Below are positions 10,420 through 53,484 of a DNA stretch of 64,000 nucleotides, piece by piece. The stretch's first letter is position 1, and each line of letters starts with the position of its first letter. The translations under genes and the position numbers were made by a program. The DNA lies in contig NZ_NMTR01000001.1 of NCBI RefSeq assembly GCF_002549775.1, forward strand, positions 62,001 to 126,000. Direction: 5' to 3'. Source of the DNA: Faecalibacterium langellae. GTDB lineage: Bacteria > Bacillota > Clostridia > Oscillospirales > Ruminococcaceae. A model generated the notes under the pieces. That model was not told the origin of the DNA. It searched no databases and saw only the letters and a list, made by a program, of their open reading frames with translations.

Positions 10420-10440
10420 CCCCTGAAAAACGCAAGAAAG

Positions 10441-10478
10441 AGCCGCCGCACGAATTGCCGTGCGGCGGCTCCTTTTTT
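10441..10478 (+). terminator. Rho-independent terminator
   Basis: A 12-bp GC-rich stem (AGCCGCCGCACG with CGTGCGGCGGCT) followed by CCTTTTTT, between two convergent genes. Confidence 0.85.
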
Positions 10479-10506
10479 GCGCAGGTGCCTGCCCAGAAGC
10501 GCAAGA

Positions 10507-37936: not shown

Positions 37937-38542
37937 ATGAGCAGCAAAAAGAGACAGGATCAGTATACTGCCGGATTGGTATCAAAGCCCTTCTGGTTCT
38001 ATGAGTATAAAGCCTATGTTAATGAACTTTTGAACGGTTCATCGGCAGACGAAATCAGGAGCAGTGCTTTTGAGAAGCACCTGTTTTCCGCAGCCAAGGA
38101 GTACCGTGTAAAGGAAATTCTTAATTGTGTTTCGCGTCGGGTGACACAGTTTGATCAGGATTGGCAGGAACTTTTCGGACAGCAATCTGTTATGGTGCAG
38201 AGAATGATGGTTCTGCTGTCTATTATGGCAGACGACAAACTTTTCTTCACCTTCATGTACAGAGTATACCGTGATAAGCTGATTGTTGGAGCTGAATCTT
38301 TGGAGTCGAGCGATGTGCTTGCGTTCTTTCGCTTGATGCAGAACGAGTCTGAGGAAATTGCTCAGTGGAAAGACACGACCATTCGCAAGCTGACACAGAC
38401 CTACCGTAAACTGCTGAACGATGCAGGACTTCTTGCTGGCGACAAGATGGTGCCGCCTCTGCCCAGCTCTGCATTAAAGCAGTACCTGAAGGCACATGAC
38501 ATGAACGCCTATCTGATGGCAATCACAGGAGCAGATGAATGA
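37937..38542 (+). CDS. brxA: BREX protein BrxA (DUF1819)
   Basis: A 201-aa protein that matches the BrxA family in length and sequence style ('YTAGLVSKPFWFYEYKAYVNELLNGSSADEIRS', 'DKLFFTFMYRVYRDKLIVGAESLESSDVLAFFRLMQ'). BrxA is a small, mostly helical, DNA-binding protein needed for BREX defence. It ends in an ATGA overlap with brxB. The ribosome site is weak. Confidence 0.85.
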   Translation: MSSKKRQDQYTAGLVSKPFWFYEYKAYVNELLNGSSADEIRSSAFEKHLFSAAKEYRVKEILNCVSRRVTQFDQDWQELFGQQSVMVQRMMVLLSIMADDKLFFTFMYRVYRDKLIVGAESLESSDVLAFFRLMQNESEEIAQWKDTTIRKLTQTYRKLLNDAGLLAGDKMVPPLPSSALKQYLKAHDMNAYLMAITGADE

Positions 38543-39108
38543 ATACGGCTGATAGACTGAATAACCTTGATGCTTTTTTGCACACAATTTCCGAGGAGAA
38601 CCACGCCGGACTCGGCGGTGAAGCTGGCTACTATGTGTTCAGCTATGACCCGAAAGATGAGATGCGTATTCGGCAATGGACAAAGAATGAAATTGAGCTT
38701 TTTCGGAGGGCACATCGTCCGGTTGTGGAGTTTGACCTCTACAAAATCATGGCGGAACTGCTGGTTGAAAAGCATCCACGGCAAAAATACGAAGACCTGG
38801 AGATGCGGACCGGCAGCATGACACGCGTGGTGAATGCGGCGAACAGTGTTTTGCAGATCGGACGGCCGATGGACCTTATGCTGGACTACATTGTGAAGCG
38901 CATCCCACAGGACAATGCTGTTATCCTGTTGACCGGTGTTGGAAAATGCTACCCACTTTTGCGTTCTCATAAAATTCTGAACGACTTGCATGACCGGCTT
39001 GCACAGGGGATTGTTCTGATGATGTTTCCGGGACGATACGAAGATGGCTACCTGTATTTGTTCGGCGATGTAAAGGATGGCAATAATTACCGTGCGAAGC
39101 CTATCTGA
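38539..39108 (+). CDS. brxB: BREX protein BrxB (DUF1788)
   Basis: A 189-aa protein of the DUF1788/BrxB family: 'FDLYKIMAELLVEKHP', 'AVILLTGVGKCYPLLRSHKILNDLHDRL' and the C-terminal 'VLMMFPGRYEDGYLYLFGDVKDGNNYRAKPI' are family-like. Its biochemical role is not settled; it is required in type 1 BREX. It is coupled to brxA and precedes brxC by 24 bases. Confidence 0.88.
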   Translation: MNTADRLNNLDAFLHTISEENHAGLGGEAGYYVFSYDPKDEMRIRQWTKNEIELFRRAHRPVVEFDLYKIMAELLVEKHPRQKYEDLEMRTGSMTRVVNAANSVLQIGRPMDLMLDYIVKRIPQDNAVILLTGVGKCYPLLRSHKILNDLHDRLAQGIVLMMFPGRYEDGYLYLFGDVKDGNNYRAKPI

Positions 39109-39132: not shown

Positions 39133-42100
39133 ATGAATATTGGTCAGATGTTTGCAAAATCGATCAACCGCGAAATCAAACCGGTGGTCAAGCCCGGTCA
39201 GGTTGATGATGCAACTGTCAAGCTGGAACTTCAGGAATATGTTGTGACACAGGAGCTTCAGAAACATTTTGCTGCATTCTTTTCAAATTACCGTCGAGGC
39301 ATTGGCGCAGATACTGATCGTATCGGTGTCTGGATTTCCGGCTTCTTTGGAAGTGGTAAATCTCACTTTCTAAAGATGCTGTCTTATCTAATCAGCGATA
39401 AAGAAGTTGCAGGCAAGCCTGCATTGGAATATTTTATCGAGGACGATAAGATTACGGACCCGAAGGTTCTGGCAGACATCCGCGCAGCAGAAAGTGTCAG
39501 CACGGACGTGATCCTGTTCGATATTGCCTCCAAGAGCCGCACCAGTAGTGCCGCTGCACGCGATGTGATCACCATGGTTTTTCTGCGGGCATTCAACGAG
39601 AAACTGGGTTATTCCTACCAGTATCCTCGCATGGCAGATCTGGAGCGGAAGTTGGATGCAGATGGAAAGCTGCAAAAGTTCCGTGACCGTGTAGAAGAAC
39701 TGGAAGGCAGCAGCTGGGATGATGCTGTGGCTGGCATCGACCTTGCACAGGATTCGTTTGTGCAGGCACTGGTTGAGCAGGGTGTGATGAGTGAGGAATC
39801 TGCACGCAGCTGGTGTGACCGTGTGGGCGAAGAATACAGCATCAGCACGGAAGATTTTGCCAAGCTCGTCCGTAAACATATTGAAAGTAAGGGCAACGAT
39901 CATCATGTGGTTTTCTGCGTGGATGAGGTTGGTCAGTACATCGGTGATGACTCCAATATGATGCTGGATCTTCAGACGCTGGAGCATGATCTGGCAGTTC
40001 AGTGCCATGGCAAAGCGTGGATTCTGGTCACCGCACAGGAAGCCATTGATAAAATTCAGGCTGTCAATAATGTAGACTTCTCCAAGATTCAGGGCCGCTT
40101 TGACACCCGGCTGTCCCTGTCGTCCAGCGATGTGGCAGAAGTTGTCAAGAAGCGTATCCTGAAAAAGAATGCAGAAGCGCAGGCCGAACTGAAAACGTTT
40201 TATCCCAGAAAGGCAGATGCCCTTGATACATTGCTCAAGTTCTCTGGCGATATGCCTGAAATGAAACTGTACGAGAATGCGTCTGATTTCGCAGAGGTGT
40301 ACCCCTTTGTTCCCTATCAGTTCAATCTGCTGGGCAAGGTGCTGGATGCTGTCCGTCTGTTTAGCAGTCCCGGCAAAAACAGCTCCTATGGCGAACGCTC
40401 CATGCTGAGTATGTATCTCAGCACCGCCAAGAGCCTTCAGAATCAGGAAGAAGGCATCCTCGTCCCGTTCAATGCATTCTATCAGGGCCTGTCCGCATTG
40501 GTGGACCACGAAACTGCCATTGCCATTACCAACGCACAGCGTAACAATTCGCTGAACCCCGACCATGCAGAAACCTGCTTTGAGGTTGAGGTACTCAAAG
40601 TCCTGTTCATGATCAAGAATGTGCGGGAGTTTGATAAGCCTACGGTGCAAAACATCGCTACCCTGATGGCATCACGGACGGATGAGGACCGTTATCAGCT
40701 GGAAAACCGGGTGGAAACGGCTCTGAAAAAGCTGGTTCAGGAGCAGTTGGTACAGAATCTAGGCGATAATTACATCTTCCTGACCAATGAGGAGCAGGAG
40801 GTCAACAGAGAAATTGCGAGCCGTCGGCCGGAAGATTCCGAAATGAACCGCGAACTGGCAACGCTGATCTTTGATGAAAACTACCGCGCGGACAAGTACC
40901 GTTATCCGTATCTGAATGGCCGTTATTCCTTCGGCTTCAATCGGAAAATCGATGGCTATGATGCCCTTTCCCGCCCAGACAACAGCATTACAGTCAAAAT
41001 CATCACCTCCCGTGGCGATGATGCAGATGAATCCCGCCTGAAGATGCTGTCCTCCGGCGAAAGCGGCGACCACACCATTTTTGTGCAGCTGCATGACGAT
41101 ACCCGCCTGAACAACGAGCTGCGCATGATGCTGCAAATTCAGAACTATCTGCGCAGCGGCACCGCAGGCCGTATCACGAAGTATCGCGCTATCTGCGAGG
41201 CAAAGCAGGAAGAAGTGGAAGAACGCCGTCAGAATGTTAAGGTGTTTCTGAAGCAGGCACTGTCGGAAGCGGATATTTATGTGTACGGCTCCAAGCTGTC
41301 CGGCGGCTCCCGCGACTTTGAGACACGCCTGAACGATGCCCTGAAGCAGCAGGTGGAACGTCTGTTCAACCACCTGACGGACATTGACAAGTCGGTTTCG
41401 GAGCAGGACATCGGCAAGCTGTTTGCGGATGCCGGGCAGATGCGGCTTGGCGGTGACGGTACCGGCAACAGCCGCGCCTTGGACGATGTCCGTACCCGTA
41501 TTGAGCGCAATTCTCTGTCGAGAACGGTGACGACCTCGCTGAAAACGCTGCTGGGCATCTTTACCAAGGAGCCTTATGGTTTCCTGCCGGTGGATGTGGA
41601 GTGGCTGGTTGCACGCCTGTTTGCAGATGGCATCCTGACGCTGACCATGAACCATGAGCAGCTCAGCCTTTCCAGCCGGAATGCGCAAGAGTTCCAGCGT
41701 CTGTTTACCAGAGTGGAGTCGCAGGAGCGTTTGCTATGCGACATCCGCAAGCACGCCACCGATAAACAGAAGCGCCTTGTTCGTGATATGATGCGCGACC
41801 TGTTTGAAAAGGGCGTTTCTTCGGATGACGATGAGCAGCTGATGGCGGATTTGAAAAAAGAGTGTACTGATCTGCGGGAAGAGCTGCGCAGACAGCAGGC
41901 AACTTACCGGGAGGAATCGTATCTCCCCGGCAAGAACACCGTGGATGCGGGCATTGCCCTGATGACCTCGCTGATCGACCCCACCACGACGGAATCCTTC
42001 TACACGGCACTGGAAAATGCACAGGAGGATTATCAGGACTTCAAGGAAACTTACGAATCCCTGCGGGACTTCTTCAACGCCGGGCAGATCAAGGTATTCC

Positions 42101-42747
42101 GTGAGGCACACGATGCTGTGGAACTCTACATGCGCAATCAAAGCCGCATTGATGACGGTGAAGTAAAGAACGCTGCGGAAGGAATGCGTAAGATTCTGAG
42201 CATGGCAGAGCCGTATGACAAGATTCGGAATCTGGCGGTTTTGCATACGACATTTCAGGAAAAATACCGTGAGCTGTTGGATCGTAAATCCGAGCCGGTA
42301 AAAGACTATGTGGCGGACTGCTATGGACGTGTTCTTCAGCATCTGAATACGCTTCGCTGCAAGGAGCACTACTGGTCCTCTGTAATCGCAGAGCGGGACG
42401 ATGCGCTGGAAAAGATTTGCAGCACCAATAATCTGGGCGATCTCGAATTGGCAAAACTGGATGCGAATCGGACAAAAATCAACTGGATCAACACCATCGA
42501 CCAGTACGAGGCTGCACACCAGCCTGTGGTGCAGACCCCGGCGGCAAAGGTGTCGGGCGGTGCTCCTGCAAAGGCTGCGCCTGCTGCCCCGGTGCGCCGT
42601 CGTGTCACCATCAGCATTCAGGAAGTGACGGATGAATCGTGGCAGATCAACAACGCCGCAGAACTGGACGCATACATTGAAAAGCTGCGCCATGCCCTGA
42701 AGCAGAAGCTGGACAATGGCGATACCCTGAACGTGGATATCTGGTAA
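39133..42747 (+). CDS. brxC: BREX P-loop ATPase BrxC
   Basis: A 1204-aa protein, the usual size for BrxC. The P-loop 'GFFGSGKSHFLKML' lies near residue 70-83 and a Walker-B-like 'HVVFCVDEVGQYIGD' near 258-272. Later coiled-coil stretches ('EKLCDLREELRRQQATYRE'-like) and a Pro/Ala linker before the C-terminal 60 residues are visible. BrxC is an AAA-like ATPase that works with PglX and PglZ. AGGAGG precedes the start. No break or odd composition is seen in it. Confidence 0.92.
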   Translation: MNIGQMFAKSINREIKPVVKPGQVDDATVKLELQEYVVTQELQKHFAAFFSNYRRGIGADTDRIGVWISGFFGSGKSHFLKMLSYLISDKEVAGKPALEYFIEDDKITDPKVLADIRAAESVSTDVILFDIASKSRTSSAAARDVITMVFLRAFNEKLGYSYQYPRMADLERKLDADGKLQKFRDRVEELEGSSWDDAVAGIDLAQDSFVQALVEQGVMSEESARSWCDRVGEEYSISTEDFAKLVRKHIESKGNDHHVVFCVDEVGQYIGDDSNMMLDLQTLEHDLAVQCHGKAWILVTAQEAIDKIQAVNNVDFSKIQGRFDTRLSLSSSDVAEVVKKRILKKNAEAQAELKTFYPRKADALDTLLKFSGDMPEMKLYENASDFAEVYPFVPYQFNLLGKVLDAVRLFSSPGKNSSYGERSMLSMYLSTAKSLQNQEEGILVPFNAFYQGLSALVDHETAIAITNAQRNNSLNPDHAETCFEVEVLKVLFMIKNVREFDKPTVQNIATLMASRTDEDRYQLENRVETALKKLVQEQLVQNLGDNYIFLTNEEQEVNREIASRRPEDSEMNRELATLIFDENYRADKYRYPYLNGRYSFGFNRKIDGYDALSRPDNSITVKIITSRGDDADESRLKMLSSGESGDHTIFVQLHDDTRLNNELRMMLQIQNYLRSGTAGRITKYRAICEAKQEEVEERRQNVKVFLKQALSEADIYVYGSKLSGGSRDFETRLNDALKQQVERLFNHLTDIDKSVSEQDIGKLFADAGQMRLGGDGTGNSRALDDVRTRIERNSLSRTVTTSLKTLLGIFTKEPYGFLPVDVEWLVARLFADGILTLTMNHEQLSLSSRNAQEFQRLFTRVESQERLLCDIRKHATDKQKRLVRDMMRDLFEKGVSSDDDEQLMADLKKECTDLREELRRQQATYREESYLPGKNTVDAGIALMTSLIDPTTTESFYTALENAQEDYQDFKETYESLRDFFNAGQIKVFREAHDAVELYMRNQSRIDDGEVKNAAEGMRKILSMAEPYDKIRNLAVLHTTFQEKYRELLDRKSEPVKDYVADCYGRVLQHLNTLRCKEHYWSSVIAERDDALEKICSTNNLGDLELAKLDANRTKINWINTIDQYEAAHQPVVQTPAAKVSGGAPAKAAPAAPVRRRVTISIQEVTDESWQINNAAELDAYIEKLRHALKQKLDNGDTLNVDIW

Positions 42748-42764
42748 ACGAAAAGAGGAACACT

Positions 42765-45428
42765 ATGGAAAAGGCACCCATCAAGAAGTTTGCGGTGGAA
42801 GCCCGTAAGAAGTTGAAAGCAGATGTGACGTTCCAGCTGGAGCGGTACGGCATCACGGAAAACGGCATTGTGGAGCCGCAAACCAGCACGGACAAGGAGC
42901 TGGTGTTTGACCTCGGCAACGGCAACACCCAGACCATTAAGGGCGAGCGCTATGTGAACCAGTACAGGAACCTTGCCGCCCATGTGCGCGGCTTCTATAC
43001 CACCGATGAACCGAAAAAGGAGCTGGAGCAGTTCATCGAGGAGATCGCCTATACATGGTTCAACCGGCTGATCGCCATCCGCTTTATGGAGGTCAACCGC
43101 TATCTCCCGGTACGGGTGCTTTCCAGCGAGATCACCGGGCAGAAACTGCCCGATTTGGTCAAGGCACCTTTCTCCGGTGATCTGGAGTTTACCGAGGACG
43201 AAAAAAAGCGCATCTTCGAGTTGCAGGATGCCAACAAGGAAGATGACCTGTTCCGTTTCCTGTTTTTTAAGCAGTGCAACGACCTGAGCCGCATTCTGCC
43301 CCGGTTGTTTGAGAATCTGGAGGGGCACAACAGCTTTTCGGAGCTGCTGATTACGCTCAGTTTCAACGACCCCAACGGCGTGGTCTACCGTCTGGTCAAC
43401 GAAGTGGACGAGCGCTGGTTTGACATCCATACCGTGGATGAGGACGGCAAGCCAATCGGTCAGGTGCAGATCATCGGCTGGATGTACCAGTATTACAACA
43501 CCGAACCCAAGGACAAGGTGTTTGCCGACCTGAAAAAGAACATCAAGATCAGCAAGCAGAACATCCCGGCGGCGACCCAGTTGTTTACCCCGGACTGGAT
43601 CGTGCGCTACATGGTGGAGAACAGCCTTGGCCGCCTGTGGTACGAGGGGCACCCGGACTTCGACAAGTCCGACTGGAAGTATTATCTGGACGAGGCCCCG
43701 CAGGAGCCGCAGGTGGAGCAGCAGCTGAAGGACATCCGTGCCCAGTACGCTAAAATGGAGCCGGAACAGCTCAAGGTCATCGACCCCTGCATGGGCAGCG
43801 GCCATATCCTGTGCTACCTGTTTGATGTGCTGATGCAGATCTATCTGGACAACGGCTACTCCAAGCGGGAGGCCGTGCGCTCCATTCTGGAAAACAACCT
43901 CTTTGGTCTGGACATCGACAAGCGTGCGGCACAGTTTGCCTATTTCTCCGTGATGATGAAGGCACGGGAGTATGACAGCGGCTTCTTCGGCCGCAAAAAC
44001 ATCCCCCAACCCAGAGTGTATGATATTCAGGAATCCAACTGGATGGGCGGTGCCTACAAGCACGAGATGGGCAGCTTCCTCAACTCGCAGGCACACCGGG
44101 ACACCCTCAACTATCTGCTGGATGCCTTTGTGGATGCCAAGGAGTACGGCTCCATCCTTCAGATCAAGCCACTGGACTATGAGGGCTTGAAAGAAGCATG
44201 GGAGACCAGCGCAGCCGCTACGGCGGGCGACATCAACATGGTCATGTGGTATGATGCCGCAAAGGATGCCGTTGCACAGCTCATTGAGCAGGCTGTTATG
44301 CTGTCCCAGAAGTATGATGCCGTGGTGACGAATCCGCCGTATATGAGTGCCGCGGGAATGGAAGGGACACTTGCCGAATTTATAAAGAAGAACTATCCAG
44401 ACACAAAATCCGATTTGAGCACGGTCTTTATGGAAAAAACGATAGCCATGTGTAAATCACAGGGCTATATGGCAATGATAAACATTCCTGTATGGATGTT
44501 TATCACTAGTTATGAAAGATTAAGAGTCAATCTGTTAGATAATGAAAGTCTAGTAAATATGGTTCATCCGGGACGCGGTATTTTTGGATCGGATTTTGGT
44601 ACGACAGCTTTTGTTGTTTACAAAAAACACATTCTGAATTATCAAGGGCATTATAGACGGCTGTTTGATAAGCAGGGTGATGTAGAAACTCCTGAAGTTC
44701 GAGAACAACGATTCTTTGAAAAGCGTGGAATCTATTACGCCAATCAGGAGAACTTTAAAAAAATTCCGGGTTTGCCAATAGCATATTGGGTCGGAGAAAA
44801 CTTTATTGACGATTTTCGGACAGGAAAAGCTTTGGGAGATATATGTCCATGCAAAAAAGGCATGGATACCTCCGATAATGACAGATTTCTTCGTCTCTGG
44901 CATGAGGTGAATCAAGAAAAATTCTCCTTTGGTTTGGTCGAGGACGAAAAGAAGTGGTACCCGTATGATAAGGGCGGAAATTTCAGGAGATGGTACGGAA
45001 ACAAAGAATATGTTGTCAACTATGAGGATAACGGAGCTGAACTGCAAAATTCAAGAGCAAATCTAAGAAGTAAGCAACTCTATTTCAAGGAACATATAAC
45101 ATGGAGTGCACTCACAGCTGCTGGGACAAGTTTTCGTCTAAGCGATTACAAATCACTTTTTGATTCAGCTGGTTCATCGGCTTTTCCTAATGAAAATAGC
45201 ATTTTCTATATTTTGTCAATCATGAACACTAAGGTGTTCGATTTGATAATGGGGGTTATCAACCCGACTATCAACTATGGCGCAGGGTCGGTCGCATTGA
45301 CTCCTATAAAGCAATGGGATGAGAAAGATAAAATTGACCGTATTGCTTCAAACAATGTTGAAATTAGCCGTACAGATTGGGATGCTTTTGAAACGAGTTG
45401 GGACTTTAAGAGACACCCGCTGGTGTAA
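42765..45428 (+). CDS. pglX: BREX adenine methyltransferase PglX, N-terminal part
   Basis: An 887-aa polypeptide with the N6-adenine methyltransferase core: motif I 'IDPCMGSGHILCYLFDVL' (about 340) and NPPY at 523-526. The target recognition region follows. It ends at 'RTDWDAFETSWDFKRHPLV' stop, the point where full-length PglX (about 1,200 aa) normally continues into its C-terminal domain; that domain is encoded separately at 49652-50572, and the two lengths sum to 1,193. DNA changes from GC-rich to AT-rich just after the NPPY codons (44,345 on). PglX marks host DNA in BREX and sets specificity. Confidence 0.9.
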   Translation: MEKAPIKKFAVEARKKLKADVTFQLERYGITENGIVEPQTSTDKELVFDLGNGNTQTIKGERYVNQYRNLAAHVRGFYTTDEPKKELEQFIEEIAYTWFNRLIAIRFMEVNRYLPVRVLSSEITGQKLPDLVKAPFSGDLEFTEDEKKRIFELQDANKEDDLFRFLFFKQCNDLSRILPRLFENLEGHNSFSELLITLSFNDPNGVVYRLVNEVDERWFDIHTVDEDGKPIGQVQIIGWMYQYYNTEPKDKVFADLKKNIKISKQNIPAATQLFTPDWIVRYMVENSLGRLWYEGHPDFDKSDWKYYLDEAPQEPQVEQQLKDIRAQYAKMEPEQLKVIDPCMGSGHILCYLFDVLMQIYLDNGYSKREAVRSILENNLFGLDIDKRAAQFAYFSVMMKAREYDSGFFGRKNIPQPRVYDIQESNWMGGAYKHEMGSFLNSQAHRDTLNYLLDAFVDAKEYGSILQIKPLDYEGLKEAWETSAAATAGDINMVMWYDAAKDAVAQLIEQAVMLSQKYDAVVTNPPYMSAAGMEGTLAEFIKKNYPDTKSDLSTVFMEKTIAMCKSQGYMAMINIPVWMFITSYERLRVNLLDNESLVNMVHPGRGIFGSDFGTTAFVVYKKHILNYQGHYRRLFDKQGDVETPEVREQRFFEKRGIYYANQENFKKIPGLPIAYWVGENFIDDFRTGKALGDICPCKKGMDTSDNDRFLRLWHEVNQEKFSFGLVEDEKKWYPYDKGGNFRRWYGNKEYVVNYEDNGAELQNSRANLRSKQLYFKEHITWSALTAAGTSFRLSDYKSLFDSAGSSAFPNENSIFYILSIMNTKVFDLIMGVINPTINYGAGSVALTPIKQWDEKDKIDRIASNNVEISRTDWDAFETSWDFKRHPLV

Positions 45429-45443
45429 TAAAAGGAATCATTT

Positions 45444-46271
45444 ATGGAAGAAGCTGTAAGAAAGGAAATTGAAAAGATTTGCAATGAGGAACTTGCAAAA
45501 CGTACATGGGGAGCAAAACTTAGTAAGGCCAACAAAGGTGGTATGCCACGTTACCTGATTACAGATTACCGTGCGTTTGGCCTTGTGACGGGAATTGTAC
45601 GGTATTTTATTCATCGAGAAAACATTCATGAAAGACTTTTCTACAGAGGACAAACAGAAGAATGGGCATTGAAACCAAGTTTGTATAGAAACATCGAAAC
45701 CCATGATAAAATGGATCTGGCTGATTCATGGAGAAAGCAAGCTCTGGAAGTTCTTGAAAAAGAAAAGTTTGACTATAAAGGCACTCCTGACGAACGGGAG
45801 GCTCTGGCACAGCACTATGGGCTAGCAACATCTTTTATTGATATTGTTGACCATTTCCAGACGGCATTGTGGTTTGCATGTGATGGGCAGAAGGACAACA
45901 ACAGCGTTGGATATATCTATGTTATTTCTGTTCCAGAAGATAAGGCTACTATCATTGACCTGAGAAACAAGCCGTCTAAATGGCTGCGCCCTCATGTTCA
46001 ACAGGGATTTTGCTTTAAGATGAATCACATCTCACAGTGTGGATTAGTTCCAAAAGACTATCATATTATGACGTTTGTTGTGCCACGGGAACTGTTGGAA
46101 CGTTGGAGCAATTATGATGTAATAAAGCACAATTATATGTATCCGCCAGAAGAAGATGACAGCAGTTATGGATTCTGGCAAAAAGTCGAAAATCACCTAA
46201 ATAAAGTGGGACTGGGAACAACCCCACAAACGTGGATTGAGGAACGGATGGATGAAAAAGCAAGAGCTTAA
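45444..46271 (+). CDS. FRG domain protein
   Basis: A 275-aa protein with the FRG motif itself in 'RLFYRGQTEEWALKPSLYRN' (about residue 65-85) and the family's 'LAQHYGLATSFIDIVDHFQTALWFAC'. FRG proteins are frequent in defence islands; no general biochemical activity is settled. The gene is AT-rich compared with the BREX core and starts 15 bases after the pglX N-terminal stop. It overlaps the next gene by 20 bases. Confidence 0.85.
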   Translation: MEEAVRKEIEKICNEELAKRTWGAKLSKANKGGMPRYLITDYRAFGLVTGIVRYFIHRENIHERLFYRGQTEEWALKPSLYRNIETHDKMDLADSWRKQALEVLEKEKFDYKGTPDEREALAQHYGLATSFIDIVDHFQTALWFACDGQKDNNSVGYIYVISVPEDKATIIDLRNKPSKWLRPHVQQGFCFKMNHISQCGLVPKDYHIMTFVVPRELLERWSNYDVIKHNYMYPPEEDDSSYGFWQKVENHLNKVGLGTTPQTWIEERMDEKARA

Positions 46272-47646
46272 ATCTCTCCTGATTGGAAACGGAATCAATA
46301 TCAATTTTGGCGGAAAGGCATATTCAAACCAGTTTATCATTAAGAGAATTATTTTCAATGCGAGGGCTGGAAAATACGACCCACTCTTTAACGGAAAAAT
46401 GAGCGGAGAGCAAATTGAAGAAACCTTTTTGAATCTGGCTGAATGGGCAAACGCTATTTCAAGAGGAGAATGCGACTCCGTAGTAACAGATGAAGAACTT
46501 CCGCTTCTGGAGGATTTCAAGAAAAGGTATAGCAAAAAGGTTGAGCACTACTATGATGTCGGGTTGGAAGACTGGTTGTTTATTCTCCATATTGTCTTTT
46601 TGAAAAATGCTGACCTGAAAAATATTTGGGGTCCCGTAAAGTTCAGCTTTGAGCAGATGATGTTGGATGCCATATACAACGACGGTGACATTCAGAAGGT
46701 ATACTTATCCATGGGAAAACCCGTGAAAAGATGGTTCGAACAGTTTGATAAGATTTTTACATTGAACTACGATAACAATGTTGAAACACTGATTAAAAAA
46801 CCAATATTCCATCTTCATGGTGATTACCGTACAAAAGCTAACAGTGAAAATCCGAATACGATTTTGGGGTATCAAAGGACGGAAGCCCACCAGACAGTAG
46901 TGGTCCCCGGATTTGAACATTGCTACTGTAATGCCCTTTTTGATTACAGAGGTGAGAATAAGCTCCAAGTGGCGGATGGATTCGAAAAAGGAAAAGCAAG
47001 TGTTCAGCGTCTGGCTGACAGTGGAGTTCCTGCAAGCGCATTTCCGGCTCCGGCAGCAGGTTTAGTTCAAACATATCGTGAGCATCCGGAACTTGAGATT
47101 GCACCAACGTACTACTTTGATGAGTTTAGAAAACTTAGCGGAGAAGTACATATCATTGGTATGTCGCCCAACAATGATTCACACTTGTTCAGGTTGATTG
47201 ATGCAAGTGCAGTTGACAAGGTTGTTTTTTACTACTTTTCTGAATCTGAAAAGAAGCAGAAACTCCCGCTCCATCAAAAAGTAGAATATAGAAGTGCCCC
47301 GGATCTTTGGAAAAGCTTGAAAGCAGCTCCCAAGAAATACAGCTGTAATTATGACATTCCGAAATTACCTCAAATTGATGGAATCTTTGACTTTTTGGGC
47401 GAAATATCAGGTGACCCTGTATCAAAAGCGGATATCATAAAAGAAGTTAATTCTATCCCCGAATTTCGGGCAAAAGAACTGTGCGAACTGGTAGATCAAG
47501 AAATAAAGCAGATGGATAAAAAAGGATCGCCTAAAGATGAAAAGGAGCTAAAATGGAGATTTGGTGAAGTCAGTCGAATCGCACTAAGAAATGGTGTGAT
47601 GCCTGCGGCACTGTTAGTACATTATACTATGACGTTGGGAAAATGA
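46252..47646 (+). CDS. AbiH-like / SIR2-fold protein
   Basis: A 464-aa protein with 'LLIGNGININFGG' at its start, 'FTLNYDNNVETLI' near 165 and 'IFHLHGDYRT' near 185, a pattern shared by AbiH-type abortive infection proteins and SIR2-like NAD-hydrolysing effectors. The later 'EVHIIGMSPNNDSHLF' fits as well. It could trigger cell shutdown upon infection by binding or cleaving a nucleotide cofactor; NADase activity is an inference. It starts within the FRG gene and is equally AT-rich, so the two probably form a pair. Confidence 0.75.
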   Translation: MKKQELKSLLIGNGININFGGKAYSNQFIIKRIIFNARAGKYDPLFNGKMSGEQIEETFLNLAEWANAISRGECDSVVTDEELPLLEDFKKRYSKKVEHYYDVGLEDWLFILHIVFLKNADLKNIWGPVKFSFEQMMLDAIYNDGDIQKVYLSMGKPVKRWFEQFDKIFTLNYDNNVETLIKKPIFHLHGDYRTKANSENPNTILGYQRTEAHQTVVVPGFEHCYCNALFDYRGENKLQVADGFEKGKASVQRLADSGVPASAFPAPAAGLVQTYREHPELEIAPTYYFDEFRKLSGEVHIIGMSPNNDSHLFRLIDASAVDKVVFYYFSESEKKQKLPLHQKVEYRSAPDLWKSLKAAPKKYSCNYDIPKLPQIDGIFDFLGEISGDPVSKADIIKEVNSIPEFRAKELCELVDQEIKQMDKKGSPKDEKELKWRFGEVSRIALRNGVMPAALLVHYTMTLGK

Positions 47647-47684
47647 GTTTCTTTGGCAAAATGTATTCATAAGGAGATGAGTCC

Positions 47685-47879
47685 ATGAGCATCAAATCCA
47701 CCACTCCTGCCCAGCACAAAAGCAACCTGCGCAATGTGTACGGCACCTTTGCCATTGAGGGTATGACCATCAGCAAAGCCACCCGCAGCAACCTTGACCG
47801 CATCGGCAACGGACAGGCCAGCTGGCAGGAGGTTGTGAAGGAACTGCGTGCAAAGTACGATCACCCTGATAATGCATAA
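47685..47879 (+). CDS. VbhA-like Fic-inhibitory antitoxin
   Basis: A 64-aa protein of the VbhA type. 'GTFAIEGMTIS' contains the Fic-inhibitory motif ([S/T]xxxE[G/N], here TFAIEG), whose Glu blocks ATP binding in a partner Fic AMP-transferase. AAGGAGATGAG precedes the start. No fic gene follows; the next gene is an AlbA/Schlafen-type protein, so it is an orphan in this island. The GC content is again that of the BREX core. Confidence 0.75.
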   Translation: MSIKSTTPAQHKSNLRNVYGTFAIEGMTISKATRSNLDRIGNGQASWQEVVKELRAKYDHPDNA

Positions 47880-47900
47880 TTAGAATAAAGGAGAAACGCC

Positions 47901-49511
47901 ATGCCCTATTTAGAGACCATTCCAGAACTTCTGGAAGCAAAGGAAGGCGAACACGTCCAATTCAAAGAGGCGAAAAATCGGTTTGATTTTGGAGAAGCCG
48001 CAAGGTGTTGCTGCGCCTTGGCAAACAATGGCGGCGGCAAGCTGGTGTTTGGCATCACAGACAAACGGCCGCGTCAGGTAGTAGGCAGTCGTGCTTTTGA
48101 ACAGCCGGAACGCACTCGTATGGGGCTGATCGACAAGCTGAAAATCAATGTTGACTTTCAGCTGTATGACTATGAGGGAAAGCGGGTACTGGTTTTTGAT
48201 GTGAAAAGCCGCCCGATCGGGATGCCGGTACTGTATGAAGGCGTTGCGTGGATTTATGACGGCGATACGCTGTGTCCAATGCCGGAAGATATGCGCCGCC
48301 GCATCTATGATGAGATTGGAACAGACTTCTCCGGCAAAATTTGTGAGGGCGCGACCTTTGACGATCTGGATGAGACTGCGATTGAAAATTTCCGTTCCAA
48401 CTGGATCGAAAAAAGCGGCAATAAACAGCTTGCAACACGGTCAAGGCATCAGATTCTCATTGATTGTGGTGCCATCACGGATAGTGGCGTGACCTATGCA
48501 GCTCTGATTTTGTTCGGCAAAAATGAAGCGCTTACTCGTTTTTTACCGCAGGCTGAAATTGTTTTTGAATATCGTTCTTCCGAAGCATCTGGCCCTGCAA
48601 ACCAGCGGGAAGAATTCCGGGTGGGCTTCTTTGCGTGCTATGACCGCATCTGGGAGCTGGTCAATTTGCGGAACGACAAACAGCATTATCAGGAAGGTTT
48701 TTTCGTATTTGACATCTTTACGTTCAATGAGCGCGTCGTGCGAGAGGCCATTCTGAATGCAGTCAGCCACAGAAATTACCAGTTTGGCGGCAGCATCTTT
48801 GTGCGCCAATATCGGGACAGACTTGTAGTTGAAAGCCCCGGTGGCCTGCCCTTTGGCATTACGCTGGACAATATACTGGATCGTCAGTTGCCACGCAATC
48901 GCCGTATTGCAGAGATTCTTTCCCTATGCGGCATGGTCGAACGTTCCGGGCAGGGCATGAATCTGATGTTCGAGCTAAGCGTACAGGAGGCAAAGCCGCT
49001 CCCAGACTTTACTGGTACGGATGAGTTCTTTGTCAGCGTTACGCTGAATGGGCTAATCATTGACAAGGCGATGCTTTCGGTGATCAATCGCATCAGTGAA
49101 AGAAGTACAGAGCTGCTGTCCACGGAAGACTTCTTGGCCATTGATGCGCTTTACCACGATCGTCCGCTCAATGGAAAAATGCAGGCGCGGCTGCCCCGGC
49201 TGGTCGAAATGGGTATTGTGGAGCATATCGGCCGAAAGAAATATGTCCTTGCAAGAAGCCTGTATGCGGCAACAGGAAAGACCGGCGTGCATACAAGACA
49301 CGTTGGTCTGGACAAAGATACCAATAAGGCGCTGCTGCTGAAACATATCCGGCAGAATAACGATGTTGGAACTCCGTTCAAAGAGTTGCAGCAAGTTTTG
49401 CCGGGTCTTACTCGTGGACAGATACAAAGGCTGATGCAAGAATTGAAAGATAGCCATCAGGTGTATCCTCAAGGAAAAACAAGCGCGGCACGTTGGTTTG
49501 CCAATGTTTGA
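47901..49511 (+). CDS. AlbA_2 (Schlafen-type) ATP-binding protein with winged helix
   Basis: A 536-aa protein. The N-terminal AlbA_2 domain ('EGEHVQFKEAKNRFDFGEAARCCCALANNGGGKLVFGI', about 12-130) is followed by a GHKL-like ATP-binding region ('REAILNAVSHRNYQFGGSIFVRQYRDRLVVESPGGLP', about 280-360) and C-terminal winged helices (about 420-536). Such proteins are often regulators, and appear in defence islands. GGAGAA precedes the start. Four 11-bp repeats lie just after its stop. Confidence 0.82.
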   Translation: MPYLETIPELLEAKEGEHVQFKEAKNRFDFGEAARCCCALANNGGGKLVFGITDKRPRQVVGSRAFEQPERTRMGLIDKLKINVDFQLYDYEGKRVLVFDVKSRPIGMPVLYEGVAWIYDGDTLCPMPEDMRRRIYDEIGTDFSGKICEGATFDDLDETAIENFRSNWIEKSGNKQLATRSRHQILIDCGAITDSGVTYAALILFGKNEALTRFLPQAEIVFEYRSSEASGPANQREEFRVGFFACYDRIWELVNLRNDKQHYQEGFFVFDIFTFNERVVREAILNAVSHRNYQFGGSIFVRQYRDRLVVESPGGLPFGITLDNILDRQLPRNRRIAEILSLCGMVERSGQGMNLMFELSVQEAKPLPDFTGTDEFFVSVTLNGLIIDKAMLSVINRISERSTELLSTEDFLAIDALYHDRPLNGKMQARLPRLVEMGIVEHIGRKKYVLARSLYAATGKTGVHTRHVGLDKDTNKALLLKHIRQNNDVGTPFKELQQVLPGLTRGQIQRLMQELKDSHQVYPQGKTSAARWFANV

Positions 49512-49543
49512 TGCAGAGGGCATTTGGATGCATGTTTAGAACC

Positions 49544-49587
49544 AACTTGCATCAAACTTGCTGCAAACTTGCATCAAACTTGCCGCA
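49544..49587. repeat. Four tandem 11-bp repeats
   Basis: AACTTGCATCA, AACTTGCTGCA, AACTTGCATCA and AACTTGCCGCA stand head to tail between the AlbA-type gene and the pglX C-terminal gene. They may be a regulator site or a decayed coding tail. Confidence 0.7.
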
Positions 49588-49651
49588 AAATTAAAACGGA
49601 CTTGCAACCTGCCGGGTAGTAGTTGCTGCTAGACAGAGAAGGAATAATAAA

Positions 49652-50572
49652 ATGGGAAAACTGATAAGCGATAAATTTGCCGCATGGCAGGAAGAATGTG
49701 AGCAGCGTTTCCAGCAGCTCAAGGCCAACGAGGAAGAACTGAACCGCATCTTTATTGATATTTACGGTTTGCAGGATGAGTTGACCCCGGAAGTGGAAGA
49801 CAAGGATGTGACCGTGCGTCGCGCCGACCTGACCCGCGAGATCAAGAGCCTGCTTTCCTATGCAGTGGGGTGCCTGTTCGGGCGGTACTCGCTGGATGTG
49901 GATGGGCTGGTGTATGCCGGCGGCGAATGGGATGACAGCAAATATGTAACCCTCAAGCCGGTAACAGACAATGTGCTGCCGTTGTGCGATGAGGAATACT
50001 TTGGCGAAAACGACCTTGTGAACCGCATCGTGGAGTTTGTCCGGGTGGTGTACGGTGCCGATACGCTGGAAGAAAACCTTGCGTTCATTGCAAAGGCGCT
50101 AGGCAACAAGGGCAACACCAGCCGCGAGATCATCCGCAACTACTTTTTGAAGGATTTCTTTGCGGACCACTGCAAAATCTACCAGAAGCGGCCCATCTAC
50201 TGGATGTTCGACAGCGGCAAGAAAAACGGCTTCAAGGCGCTGGTTTACCTCCACCGCTGGGATGCCGATACCACCGGCCGCGTCTACAACAACTATCTCA
50301 GCCCCCTGCTGCGCACCTACGCACAGCAGATCGTGCAGGAGAACAATGTCATTTCCAGCAGCAACGATGCCCGCACGGTGTCCACGGCGCAGAAGCGTCT
50401 GGACAAGCTGAAGCTCCAGCAGGAGGAGTGCGAGAAGTACGAGAAAAATATCGCCCACCTTGCCGCCCTGCGCATCACGCTGGATCTGGATGACGGCGTA
50501 AAAGTGAACTACGTCAAGGCGCAGACCGCCGCAGATGGCAAAAATCTGAACGTACTTGCGCCGATTAAATAA
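49652..50572 (+). CDS. pglX: BREX PglX, C-terminal part as a separate gene
   Basis: A 306-aa protein that corresponds to the C-terminal domain of BREX-1 PglX: 'DKFAAWQEECEQRFQQLKAN', 'EEELNRIFIDIYGLQDELTP', 'VEDKDVTVRRADL', and 'YQKRPIYWMFDSGKKNGFKALVYLH'. It has no methyltransferase motifs. AAGGA precedes its own ATG, so it can be translated as a free subunit. It lies 4.2 kb downstream of the N-terminal half. Its composition matches brxC and pglZ, not the AT-rich genes between. It probably complexes with the 887-aa half to restore PglX, or else is a leftover from a displaced pglX. Confidence 0.88.
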   Translation: MGKLISDKFAAWQEECEQRFQQLKANEEELNRIFIDIYGLQDELTPEVEDKDVTVRRADLTREIKSLLSYAVGCLFGRYSLDVDGLVYAGGEWDDSKYVTLKPVTDNVLPLCDEEYFGENDLVNRIVEFVRVVYGADTLEENLAFIAKALGNKGNTSREIIRNYFLKDFFADHCKIYQKRPIYWMFDSGKKNGFKALVYLHRWDADTTGRVYNNYLSPLLRTYAQQIVQENNVISSSNDARTVSTAQKRLDKLKLQQEECEKYEKNIAHLAALRITLDLDDGVKVNYVKAQTAADGKNLNVLAPIK

Positions 50573-50580
50573 TGTGAAAC

Positions 50581-50619
50581 CAATACACCGGGGTGTTGCA
50601 ACACCGCTCCGGTGTATTG
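50581..50619 (+). other. Strong hairpin between pglX-C and pglZ
   Basis: CAATACACCGG (50581-50591) pairs perfectly with CCGGTGTATTG (50609-50619), with a second nested stem GGTGTTGCAACACC inside. The following TGGTGTTTC is a poor T-tract, so partial termination or RNA processing is likelier than a full stop. Confidence 0.65.
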
Positions 50620-50656
50620 GTGTTTCTACGATATTGTAAAGGAAAGATGAAAACCC

Positions 50657-53185
50657 ATGGCTAAAACGACACTGCGCCAGATCGAAGAACGTCTCCGGGG
50701 AATGTTTACACCGGGAGAGCAGCGCAAACTGGTATTCTGGTACGATGAATCGGCCAGCTTTGAGAACGAAGTGAATCAGCTCGACCTCCCCGGTGTGACG
50801 GTATACCGCATGGAGCCCCGCACCCAGTTTGCCACCAAGTGGATGCTGGAGATCGACCACCCGGACGAGAGCTTTCTGATCTATGCGCCCTTTGCAAAGC
50901 CCCCACTGGAGGAAAACCATCTTGCGGATATGCTGTGCTACTCGCAGGAATACTCCACCGACAAGGCGACCATGATCGCACAGGACTTTGATCTGGATGA
51001 AAGAACCCGGCTCTTTGTGCAGGAACATATCAACTTCTTTGCAGCGCAGGATCGCACGAAACGGTTCTACGATCTGGGTACGCCTGCCTATACGGAAGAA
51101 ACCTTTGCGCTGGCCATGATGGCGGTGCTGTGCAAGTGCCCGCCCAAGCCGGAGGAACTGGTACGCCATGTTCTGCGCGGTGCGCTGGATGCCGGGAACG
51201 AATCCTTGCAGCTTTTTGAGAAATTCGGGCTAGCAACGGATTTCTGGTTGGTCTGCAAACGGCTGTTTGGCTACAATCCGGCCGGGAAGAACCTGAAAGA
51301 TCTGGTCACCTGCCTATTTGCCACCTATGCTGCCCACGCAATGGACATTGATGCCCCGGATGAATGGCTGGATCGCAGCCTGCCGCAGGAGGGCGAGGTT
51401 CTGAATTTCCTTGACAGCATGATGAACTATCTGCCAGATCAGCCGTATTTTGAGCGGTTCTCAGCAACGGCTGCGCAGGAGCTGAACGTCATGCAGGTTC
51501 TGGGGCAGTTGCAGCACACGAATCCCGACTTATTGCTGGACTGTACGGTGTTCGCTGCGGCAGAGACACAGATCAGCAGCTGGATCATGAATCGCCTGAT
51601 GGAAGAAAACACATCGGCAACCCTGAAGGGGTACAGCATCCGGCAGATCTGCGAGGAGCGCAGCAAGACCTACTTTGGCGCAAAGGATGCCCAGAAAGAG
51701 CTGTATTGCCTGCTGGCCAATGCCTGCACCGTTCTGGAGGCAGTGCATTTCGTCCCGGCAGATGGCGTTGATGCACTGGCGGCGCAGTATAGTGGCAGCG
51801 CATGGCAGGCGGATACGGCTTATCGGAAGTTCTACCTGAGCTATGGAAAAGTCATCCGTACACAGGAGATTGAAAAGCTGCAAGCACTTGTGGAAAAAGT
51901 GTATACCAGCTGCTTCCTCGATCCACTGGCGGTGCGTTGGTGCCAGAGCCTGTCCCACGATCTGACCACCTTCCAGACGGAGCGTCAGACCCATTTTTAC
52001 AGCAAGAATGTCAGTGGGACACGGGAGCGCGTGGTGGTGTTTATCTCGGATGCCATGCGGTACGAAGTGGCACAGCAGCTTTTTGAAACGCTGGCGATGG
52101 ATGCAAAATGCACGGCAAAGCTGACCCCGGCTGTCAGCACAGTGCCCTCCTATACACAGCTCGGCATGGCAGCACTGCTGCCTCATGTCAGTCTGGAGCT
52201 TCAGCCTGACAGCACCGTAACCATCCTTGGAAAGAAAACGGTGGGCACTGCTGCACGGGAAAGCATCCTGCAAGCGGCAGAGAAAAACAGCAGCTGCATC
52301 CAGTTCGACCAGATGCAGAATATGCGCCGCGACGAACTGCGCAGCTACTTCTCTGGCAAGACGCTGGTGTATGTTTACCACAACCAGATCGATGCCCGCG
52401 GCGATGAGGCCCGCACGGAAAACGAGGTCTTTTCTGCCTGCGAGGAGGCTGTGGAAGAACTGTACAAGGAAATCCGCCGCCTGACCGACAATGCGAACAT
52501 CCGGCACTTTATCGTAACGGCAGACCATGGGTTCCTGTATAAGCACGACCCAATTATGGAGAGCGATAAAGTCATCAATCTGCCACAGGCAGAAATCAAA
52601 AACAAGCGTTTTATGATTTCTGATGATACGCAGCCGGTGGCCGGAGCCGTGGGCTACCGCTTGGGGGATGTGCTGGATACAGCGGATAACCGCACGGTAT
52701 ACACCCCGCTGGGCAGTTCTATTTTCAAGTGTGCTGGCGGCGGGCAGAACTATGTGCATGGCGGTGCCTCTGTGCAGGAGATGCTGGTGCCGGTGCTGGA
52801 CGTCCGCACGCAGGCCGGGCATGTTGAGACCCAGAAAGCCACCGTTTCGCTTCTGCCAACCCCTGAAACGCTGATGGATGGAAAAATCACGTTGAAGTTC
52901 CTACAGACAGAACTTGTGACGGATACTGTTCTCCCGGCGGTGTATGAGGTCTTTGTCGTCAACGCAATGGACAATCAGGTGTCCACCAAGCGGACGATCC
53001 GAGCAGACAAGACTGTGGGCTGCGCAGATGAAGAACGCCGCACAGAGGTCACGCTGACTTTGAAGAAGCTCCCGTATTCTCGTGAAAATGACTACTATTT
53101 CCTGCTGACGGACAAGGATACAGGTGCTGTTGTGGAAAAAAGATCTGTAAAAATTGATATTGCTGGGGCCAAAAAGGAGGAATAA
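50657..53185 (+). CDS. pglZ: BREX alkaline-phosphatase-like protein PglZ (type A)
   Basis: An 842-aa protein with the PglZ alkaline-phosphatase-like core: 'RERVVVFISDAMRYEVAQQL' (nucleophile region, about 457-476) and 'RHFIVTADHGFLYKHDPI' (about 615-632). The N-terminal 'KLVFWYDESASFENEVNQLDLPGV' is typical of the BREX-1 PglZ. It is one of the two hallmark BREX proteins and acts with PglX. The following HEPN gene starts three bases past its stop, so they are coupled. Confidence 0.92.
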   Translation: MAKTTLRQIEERLRGMFTPGEQRKLVFWYDESASFENEVNQLDLPGVTVYRMEPRTQFATKWMLEIDHPDESFLIYAPFAKPPLEENHLADMLCYSQEYSTDKATMIAQDFDLDERTRLFVQEHINFFAAQDRTKRFYDLGTPAYTEETFALAMMAVLCKCPPKPEELVRHVLRGALDAGNESLQLFEKFGLATDFWLVCKRLFGYNPAGKNLKDLVTCLFATYAAHAMDIDAPDEWLDRSLPQEGEVLNFLDSMMNYLPDQPYFERFSATAAQELNVMQVLGQLQHTNPDLLLDCTVFAAAETQISSWIMNRLMEENTSATLKGYSIRQICEERSKTYFGAKDAQKELYCLLANACTVLEAVHFVPADGVDALAAQYSGSAWQADTAYRKFYLSYGKVIRTQEIEKLQALVEKVYTSCFLDPLAVRWCQSLSHDLTTFQTERQTHFYSKNVSGTRERVVVFISDAMRYEVAQQLFETLAMDAKCTAKLTPAVSTVPSYTQLGMAALLPHVSLELQPDSTVTILGKKTVGTAARESILQAAEKNSSCIQFDQMQNMRRDELRSYFSGKTLVYVYHNQIDARGDEARTENEVFSACEEAVEELYKEIRRLTDNANIRHFIVTADHGFLYKHDPIMESDKVINLPQAEIKNKRFMISDDTQPVAGAVGYRLGDVLDTADNRTVYTPLGSSIFKCAGGGQNYVHGGASVQEMLVPVLDVRTQAGHVETQKATVSLLPTPETLMDGKITLKFLQTELVTDTVLPAVYEVFVVNAMDNQVSTKRTIRADKTVGCADEERRTEVTLTLKKLPYSRENDYYFLLTDKDTGAVVEKRSVKIDIAGAKKEE

Positions 53186-53187
53186 AA

Positions 53188-53481
53188 ATGAATATTGCTG
53201 AAGTTGTGGCAAAAATGAACGTTTACCTTCTGAATGCGGCGGATGTATGTCGCAAATGGTTAGAGCCACGTCTAAAGAGCCTTGAACCAAACGATTGGTG
53301 GAGTATGATCGTTCTCCCCAGCTTATCAGAACTTCAGCAACAGAAAGTGAATGAAAGAGGCATTTCGACGCTGCAAGGACTGGATTTACAGGCTGTTTTG
53401 ACTGTGGCAAGAAAGAATATCTATTCATTCCGTAATATCGAATTCTACACGGATTATTATGGAATGAAGGATAGCATTTGA
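53188..53481 (+). pseudogene. HEPN domain N-terminal part, cut off by an in-frame TGA
   Basis: Ninety-seven codons (MNIAEVVAKMNVYLLNAADV...GMKDSI) resembling the first helices of a Swt1-type HEPN domain, with GGAGG upstream inside the end of pglZ. The TGA at 53479-53481 is in the same frame as the long ORF that starts one codon later, so a single codon change separates them. CGA to TGA would be the simplest origin. Confidence 0.7.
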
Positions 53482-53484
53482 GCT

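Follow-up and report, generated by a model that had tools for sequence, protein, structure and literature searches.

The window analyzed here, a stretch of 64,000 nucleotides from Faecalibacterium langellae (contig NZ_NMTR01000001.1, positions 62,001 to 126,000 of the forward strand), harbors a type I bacteriophage exclusion (BREX) locus in which pglX, the gene for the methyltransferase PglX, is present as two intact open reading frames. Both frames, termed pglX-N and pglX-C, are located on the plus strand and are spaced by 4,223 bp with four genes in between. It is quite probable that pglX encodes a two-subunit BREX methyltransferase in this genome and that the gene holds two exchange slots. 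Because the same cut with different genes inside it recurs in related bacteria, the split gives the impression of an arrangement that is maintained rather than of damage. Judged from its sequence, the gene pair would work like PglX, and it was filed as a split variant rather than as canonical PglX because the two frames, 4,223 bp apart, do not form a single polypeptide. A BREX specificity gene of this type would be a modular platform in which a single enzyme houses one slot for the recognition domain and another for payload, and a payload need not break an enzyme made of two proteins.

pglX-N (window positions 42765..45428, 887 amino acids) comprises an N-terminal bundle, the N6-adenine methyltransferase part, and the target recognition domain, and its product ends with DWDAFETSWDFKRHPLV directly before the stop codon. 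Gamma-class N6-adenine methyltransferase motifs were found at residues 344 (GSGH) and 523 (NPPY), and the protein matched the Pfam family Eco57I (PF07669, 1.1e-24). pglX-C (49652..50572, 306 amino acids) encodes the spacer helices and the C-terminal domain. Its product begins with MGKLISDKF, and the gene has its own ATG, which is preceded by the ribosome-site-like sequence GAGAAGGAATAATAAA. The first-pass annotation had described an 887-residue half ending in KRHPLV and a 306-residue half restarting 4.2 kb further on with its own ATG and ribosome site, and the open reading frames confirmed this description. At the cut, which corresponds to about residue 870 of Escherichia coli BrxX, the recognition domain is parted from the first spacer helix. 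On the PADLOC profile PDLC02521, pglX-N covered positions 1-869 and pglX-C positions 877-1166 of 1174; on NCBIfam NF033452 (BREX_1_MTaseX), the spans were 1-899 (961 bits) and 906-1209 of 1210. Because these spans tile the profiles, the two halves are adjacent and non-overlapping and add up to a normal PglX, as had been proposed from their lengths.

The same annotation had offered three explanations: a two-subunit enzyme, a docking site for payload, and a gene broken by an insertion. The first two are compatible with each other, and both were supported by a recurrent cut residue, different payloads in the same cut, an allelic swap in a near relative, purifying selection on both halves, a start signature specific to the separate C genes, and the co-occurrence of unlinked halves. 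The third was disfavored by recurrence, selection, and the start signature. In the two-subunit enzyme, PglX-N would provide the N-terminal bundle, methyltransferase catalysis, and target recognition, and PglX-C, with two spacer helices and a C-terminal DNA-binding part, most likely re-joins PglX-N via the spacer and thereby rebuilds the DNA-clamping jaw. Salmonella PglX lacking the whole C-terminal region, including the recognition domain, did not bind DNA (PMC11341690). Physical re-association, enzyme activity, the defense action of the payload, and the recombination route are what we infer from the comparisons given below.

Recurrence and maintenance of the cut

A search of relatives for the same split with a different payload, as the first-pass annotation had suggested, yielded 20 further loci (loci and genomes are designated by L and G numbers) in which N and C are separate genes of the same contig. 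The split is thus not a chance event. With the window, 21 such cis-split loci were read, namely 17 plus L264, L269, L306, and L309. In 19 of them, the N gene stopped within six residues after an ETSWDF-type motif (ETSWDFKRHPLV followed by the stop codon), the last residues of these 19 being HPL[VIT] or a sequence close to it (CPLV, NPLV). Exceptions to the cut site were L121, in which the N gene continues into a DUF3791 domain, and L126, in which it is 11 residues longer.

The C half was matched in 24 of 297 genomes drawn evenly from the family. Judged by frame length and neighborhood, seven of these were cis-split, four had an orphan C without a BREX gene match in the 7-20 kb of sequence retrieved, 12 were fused, and one was degraded; of the fused genes, two were truncated at the start of a contig and one had a damaged C end. 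At the level of the order, 12 of 394 genomes matched and five of these were cis-split, including the window. Among the best 80 of at least 529 relatives in a search of genome contigs, 64 had one long frame, 11 had separate or shifted frames, four were without an N match upstream, and one was situated at a contig edge. Within the phylum, 34 of 398 genomes matched, and frames of less than 600 amino acids occurred in five, window included; the short frames of G1076, G958, and G931 among them were left uninspected. From these counts it follows that fused PglX is the common form and split PglX a frequent variant. A one-off disruption, which the first-pass annotation had linked to relatives with contiguous pglX and no other split cases, agreed with the first of these points, as contiguous genes form the majority, but not with the second, as many split cases exist.

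According to the record names, the split cases were found mainly in Ruminococcus, Gemmiger, Pseudoflavonifractor, Oscillibacter, and their kin, often in metagenome-assembled genomes. Two named isolates were among them, Ruminococcus callidus ATCC 27760 (L142) and Pseudoflavonifractor capillosus An386a (L165). One case was in Collinsella aerofaciens (Actinomycetota; L309), on a complete circular record that is annotated from a brxA-like gene to brxL. In this record the N half is annotated as PglX, and the C half as well as the payload (9140-9739 and 10001-10969) are listed as "hypothetical protein"; split systems can therefore escape surveys. PglX-C was present in none of the four same-genus genomes in the draw, which hence provided no within-genus allele, and a search of viral contigs gave only four loci, with 57-61% identity. 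An assembly error as the origin of the split was ruled out by the two named isolates, the circular Collinsella record, and MT837207.1 (L307), which starts inside the Schlafen gene of the gap and is 99.84% identical to window positions 48520-55976.

Selection was evaluated as the ratio of nonsynonymous to synonymous substitution rates (dN/dS). Between the window and its near relative L306, this ratio was 0.15 over 306 codons of the N half, 0.03 for the C half, 0.06 for the Schlafen gene, and 0.10 for pglZ. In other split relatives, the ratio ranged from 0.05 to 0.21 for C (seven pairs) and from 0.08 to 0.17 for the 5' portion of N (two pairs), with several dS values near saturation. Both halves of pglX are under purifying selection.

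The separate C genes have a start signature of their own, M-x-x-L-I-x-[DE]-K-[YF] or a similar sequence. It was present in 18 of 19 split and four of five orphan C genes, in two of 73 fused genes, and in none of seven frameshifted or cut cases (p 6e-16, kinship ignored). The seven are labeled "shift" here and in the tree described below and consist of L095, L129, L136, L161, and L191 (frameshift or remnant) and L157 and L099 (contig edge). L151 (no N gene at the locus) and L115 (N gene off the contig) were labeled split in both analyses and are outside the 21 loci. Seven duplicate loci had been dropped before the GC, tree, and signature analyses; L042, the twin of L128, is also not in the set, and this locus is therefore missing. 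The single split C gene outside the pattern reads MSTRISDKY. In the fused gene of L116, one of the two fused exceptions, GGAGGTGCATATATGAGT stands in frame before a separate-C signature (at about position 9990), and GGAGG..ATG is retained. This segment looks as if a C gene that was once separate had its ribosome site and start there, and a re-fusion is likely. At the nucleotide level, the C starts were 71.8% identical among split genes and 66.2% between split and fused genes; kinship was ignored in this comparison and it was not used as evidence.

These data bear on the possibility that pglX was broken by an insertion, leaving the halves as remnants and BREX inactive in this genome. An interrupted pglX has been reported and treated as non-functional (PMC9716671; here and below, statements on papers cited by PMC number refer to the sections consulted), and frameshifted cases (L095, L129, and L161) are present in our own set. 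However, the same residue was cut in 19 of 21 loci, the separate C genes share a ribosome-site-like sequence and a common start, that start was absent from all seven frameshifted or cut cases, and purifying selection acts on both halves, also between the window and L306. An insertion that destroyed the gene thus appeared very improbable. An insertion-element footprint was considered and rejected, as no gap-edge repeat pair was present among the 20 of 43 direct-repeat families listed, and a tRNA as integration site was rejected because the window contains no tRNA.

A tree of 104 C domains was calculated with a quick method and with Shimodaira-Hasegawa-like approximate likelihood ratio test values as the only support. 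The split label changed 13 times on this tree, at least seven of these changes being forced by the starred branches, and the split genes did not form one clade.

Two exchange slots and the payload genes

The near relative L306 (MT835838.1) originates from human feces, is filed as a phage, and begins inside pglX. Compared with the window, its methyltransferase part was 90.8% identical at the amino acid level, its recognition domain only 38.0%, and the last 20 residues of N again 90%. The C half (96.1%) and the Schlafen protein (95.3%) were similarly close and the VbhA-like gene was kept, and two genes encoding 297 and 270 amino acids stood in place of the FRG gene and the gene for the 469-residue protein. 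On the DNA level, a first slot (44436..45374, plus strand), which corresponds to the 3' part of pglX-N including the recognition domain, did not align with the allele of L306 and had a GC content of 0.39 compared with 0.55 upstream. It is followed by a conserved block of 56 bp (45375..45430, plus strand) that encodes the end of pglX-N and the stop codon. This block was 94.6% identical to MT835838.1 and was flanked on both sides by non-aligning DNA. The same pattern was obtained for L094 and L098: residues 1-612 of N were 89.7% identical at the nucleotide level, residues 613-809 did not align, the 59-bp end was 84.7% identical, the payloads (1,359 and 833 bp) were without similarity, and the first 327 bp of C were 94.5% identical. 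As in both pairs two non-aligning stretches are parted by the conserved N end, the recognition domain and the payload are separate slots. L306 and L307 are GenBank "Bacteriophage sp." records whose BREX DNA comes from this species or from one closely related to it.

GC content pointed in the same direction. Relative to the 5' part of N, it differed by -0.137 in the recognition domain, -0.106 in the gap, and -0.003 in C (19 rows, of which L129 and L136 are frameshifted). The gap was below the 5' part in 14 of 17 loci (p 8e-4), and its GC content tracked that of the recognition domain (rho 0.61, p 0.01) and not that of the 5' part. A strict pairing of one recognition domain with one payload was considered and found no support in the comparison across loci.

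Exchange of slot 1 would alter specificity. Slot 2, reaching from the stop codon of N to the start codon of C, may gain, lose, and swap back-up or abortive-type defense genes. Homologous recombination in the flanks, i.e. in the methyltransferase region, the approximately 56-bp ETSWDF-HPLV-stop block, and the C start, is the most likely route. The cut would allow genes to ride inside pglX, co-directional with it and probably transcribed together with it, without breaking the enzyme, and a payload of abortive or nuclease type could form a back-up defense layer. No terminator was found on the plus strand between the N and C genes; five terminator-like sites were present on both strands (shuffles, 6.0).

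All four genes in the gap of the window are on the plus strand. The first (45444..46271, 275 amino acids) encodes an FRG-domain protein (PF08867, 9.3e-15; PDC-S15), and the last (47901..49511, 536 amino acids) a protein with Schlafen/AlbA and HATPase domains (SLFN_AlbA_2, 7.6e-11; HATPase_c_4, 1.1e-15), in agreement with the FRG and AlbA-type genes named in the first-pass annotation. The VbhA-like label of the small third gene (47685..47879, 64 amino acids) corresponded to a match with PF18495, but this match was weak (2.2e-4) and below the curated cut-off. The second gene (46237..47646, 469 amino acids, TTG start as listed) had been called AbiH-like. This label was not substantiated, since the protein had no match in Pfam, NCBIfam, or the Protein Data Bank and only a partial one to PADLOC PDC-S21 (8.3e-9, residues 293-350).

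In 19 of the 21 cis-split loci, the gap contained one to four genes; the gaps of L036 (71 bp) and L181 (147 bp) were free of genes. Pfam families assigned to the payload were PRTase (L031), DUF2971 (L037 and L096), RES (L097, just under the cut-off; L094, well under it), DUF4357/RAMA (L114), DUF3990 with DUF3791 (L121), PIN plus a small upstream gene (L126), and DUF559 (L155 and L179), in addition to a weak HEPN match in L264 and a weak DUF3180 match in L269. The payload of L032, L035, L039, and L098, both L306 genes, and the L309 gene matched no Pfam family. Payload families were common to different pglX alleles in the pairs window/L097, L094/L097, and L155/L179. The Schlafen copy inside the split pglX of L097 was 87.6% identical to that of the window, despite N and C halves with only 38 and 58% identity, and nucleotide similarity began at 47888, 13 bp before the Schlafen start codon. 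The listed payload genes have the same direction as pglX, both strands having been examined for part of the loci; L126 contains a longer frame on the opposite strand, yet its PIN match lies on the pglX strand.

Some features of individual loci were noted in addition. In L121 (8957-9983), pglX-N reads in frame into the DUF3791 domain, and DUF3990 and another DUF3791-like gene come next; this is apparently a toxin-antitoxin-like module fused to the methyltransferase half. L094, L096, and L098 have two more variable spaces, between brxC and pglX-N (10 versus 918 bp) and between pglX-C and pglZ (approximately 0.9 to 1.6 kb), which would be further cargo places. A repeat search revealed AACTTGC-type direct repeats of 11 bp ahead of pglX-C (49544..49587, plus strand). 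Such repeats stand between the Schlafen gene and pglX-C also in L097 (approximately 9600-9645) and L306 (approximately 5732-5775) and are a possible operator of the Schlafen/HATPase protein.

The diversity of the payload could also mean that the split enzyme works and the slot is just a tolerated landing place for genes unrelated to PglX or BREX, a possibility compatible with two subunits. The families are indeed diverse, several are generic toxin-antitoxin types, many of the proteins are without a Pfam family, and two loci lack payload altogether. Yet the assigned payloads are mostly of defense type (FRG, RES, DUF2971, DUF559, PIN, PRTase, and Schlafen), they share the direction of pglX, and such effectors have been described beside BREX core genes generally (PMC12839542). 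A slot of mere tolerance was hence rated as rather unlikely.

A phase-variation switch, in which alleles recombine within a strain, was regarded as extremely improbable. In lactobacilli, pglX is switched by inversion, and this was the point raised for it. On the other hand, the longest inverted repeat in 42000-51500 had 29 nucleotides at 72% identity, in an analysis in which invertase genes were not searched for, and the host genome contains a single copy of PglX-C.

Unlinked N and C genes and the role of PglX-C

In the family set, the four orphan-C genomes (G209, G028, G246, and G001) were the same four that had an unlinked short N gene; G035, which is truncated at a contig end, and the degraded G206 were not scored as unlinked N. 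The orphan C genes of G246 and G001 were divergent. Among 38 genomes of the genus of G209, scored by frame length, 15 had both halves, two only C, one only N, and 20 neither (Fisher, 1.3e-7, with kinship ignored). This count includes three genomes cut by contig ends that were scored as both (G668, G680, and G694) and two C-only genomes with C at contig ends (G700 and G683), and G691 (36-residue match) and G698 (151-residue frame) were excluded as stand-alone C. In G667, N and C lie 5 kb apart on one contig. Of the N proteins not followed by a C gene, 15 were read; 13 ended at HPL[VIL], and the other two ended three or eight residues later.

PglZ was searched in 12 genomes and was matched only in that of the window and in G668. 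G659 gave no match, though a brxC - C - pglZ locus without N runs off its contig inside pglZ, with N on another contig. In nine of the 11 other genomes, N and C were on different contigs and PglZ was not detected. This suggests that C is tied more to N than to the remainder of BREX. G209 has two N genes (820 and up to 855 residues, ending HPLI and HPLV) and one C gene on a third contig, together with one fused relative of 901 residues; PglZ was not detected. Genes for PglX-N-like methyltransferases away from BREX genes were also noted in L100, L101, L103, L104, L105, L261, L263, L272, and L275. One type of 658-667 residues has similar neighboring genes in several genomes belonging to one genus (L103, L265, L272, L275, and L276), and in this it would resemble a resident epigenetic methyltransferase.

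As an alternative to re-joining, PglX-N might be a complete short methyltransferase like CamA or MmeI, and PglX-C a separate BREX or regulatory protein. The C domain is reported to occur specifically in type I BrxX and to be lacking in MmeI, DrdV, and CamA (PMC11842806). In addition, an unlinked N without a detectable C gene occurs in G685 (65% complete), and the C gene of G687 adjoins brxC, with N elsewhere and PglZ not detected. Nevertheless, N and C co-occur in most genomes having either separately, nine of 11 such genomes have both without detected PglZ, and Foldseek found the type I PglX C-terminal fold unchanged in the window protein. Two proteins that do not re-join were accordingly considered improbable.

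Several observations weigh against the two-subunit enzyme with its two slots. The split label was clustered on the C-domain tree (0 of 500 shuffles were as low) and thus partly inherited, so that the 21 loci do not represent 21 independent events. As regards the metal ligands of E. coli BrxX (D997, D999, D1012, and Y1113), D106 and Y215 of the window protein match, but V104 and N120 do not, the alignment at N120 being ambiguous by a residue. The C-terminal region of Salmonella PglX, in a construct that includes the recognition domain, was not expressible alone (PMC11341690). The recognition domain of fused PglX also had a lowered GC content (-0.100, 66 of 67); this drop therefore supports recognition-domain exchange generally and not the split specifically. 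Recognition domain and payload do not strictly travel together. Finally, no repeat family paired the gap edges among the 20 families listed, and recombinase genes were not searched for.

If the halves do re-join, PglX-C might even be a general trans-acting clamp subunit, one C serving several PglX-N specificities in and outside BREX. We put this forward tentatively and regard it as possible but doubtful. By acquiring just an N cassette, a cell could then obtain a further specificity together with back-up effectors as payload, and PglX-C could be likened to HsdM, which serves several HsdS. The gene content of G209 and G659 given above would fit this reading.

BREX neighbors and known systems

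Five genes of the type I BREX locus stand side by side on the plus strand: brxA (37937..38542; PDLC02451, 3.3e-53), brxB (38539..39108; PDLC02463, 7.5e-44), brxC (39133..42747, 1,204 amino acids; NF033441 BREX_BrxC, 1110 bits), pglX, and pglZ of BREX-1 type A (50657..53185; PF08665, 4.9e-49; PDLC02564, 3.1e-236; TIGR02687, 1.3e-161). BrxL was not matched in the host genome with a single Collinsella BrxL query run without a positive control. A RecQ/DpdF-like helicase gene precedes brxA (34301-37534) and a DrmD/BrxHII-like SNF2 helicase gene follows pglZ (53485-56817), making the BREX locus helicase-rich. Directly 3' of the latter, positions 56832-60002 encode a protein of 1,056 residues with a sacsin-type N terminus that matched PADLOC TmtA models.

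In the type I BREX systems of E. coli (BrxX, 9EWZ) and Salmonella (PglX, 8C45), the enzyme is one polypeptide, in contrast to the two genes with payload between them described here. Accessory effectors in BREX loci include GmrSD, PARIS, Schlafen, PIN, and others, among them a class with Schlafen, minimal histidine kinase, and winged helix-turn-helix domains, and a role as a back-up layer has been proposed for Schlafen and PIN proteins encoded close to BREX core genes (PMC12839542, a survey of 2026). These resemble the present payload as defense-type genes carried within a BREX operon; however, none was placed inside pglX, and the word "split" is absent from the main text as far as consulted. 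Two extra genes between pglX and pglZ have been described (PMC9009780). The interrupted or truncated pglX of PMC9716671, which cites its reference 56, is treated there as a gene needing replacement for function and, in the sections consulted, is without fixed cut site, payload, or start signature. A fixed cut site, payload inside pglX, and a separate C subunit were not found described in searches of the open-license PMC literature, subscription papers and supplements being outside this scope.

The arrangement opens to experiment the reason for which BREX carries additional effectors and their possible tie to specificity, and it offers a natural cut point for the study of the little-understood C-terminal domain of PglX. 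CamA is the orphan methyltransferase of Clostridioides difficile. The unlinked N genes away from BREX genes are similar to CamA as orphan methyltransferases, a term used for CamA in PMC11842806, but differ by the separate PglX-C gene in the same genome.

Type I restriction systems combine a shared methyltransferase with exchangeable HsdS, and half-HsdS subunits exist. Split PglX resembles them in its exchangeable recognition domains and in spacer helices as the joint, and PglX spacers have been compared with those of HsdS (PMC11341690). The difference lies in the division of the enzyme: in split PglX, the recognition domain remains on the methyltransferase subunit, and the spacer and the C-terminal domain would make up the other one.

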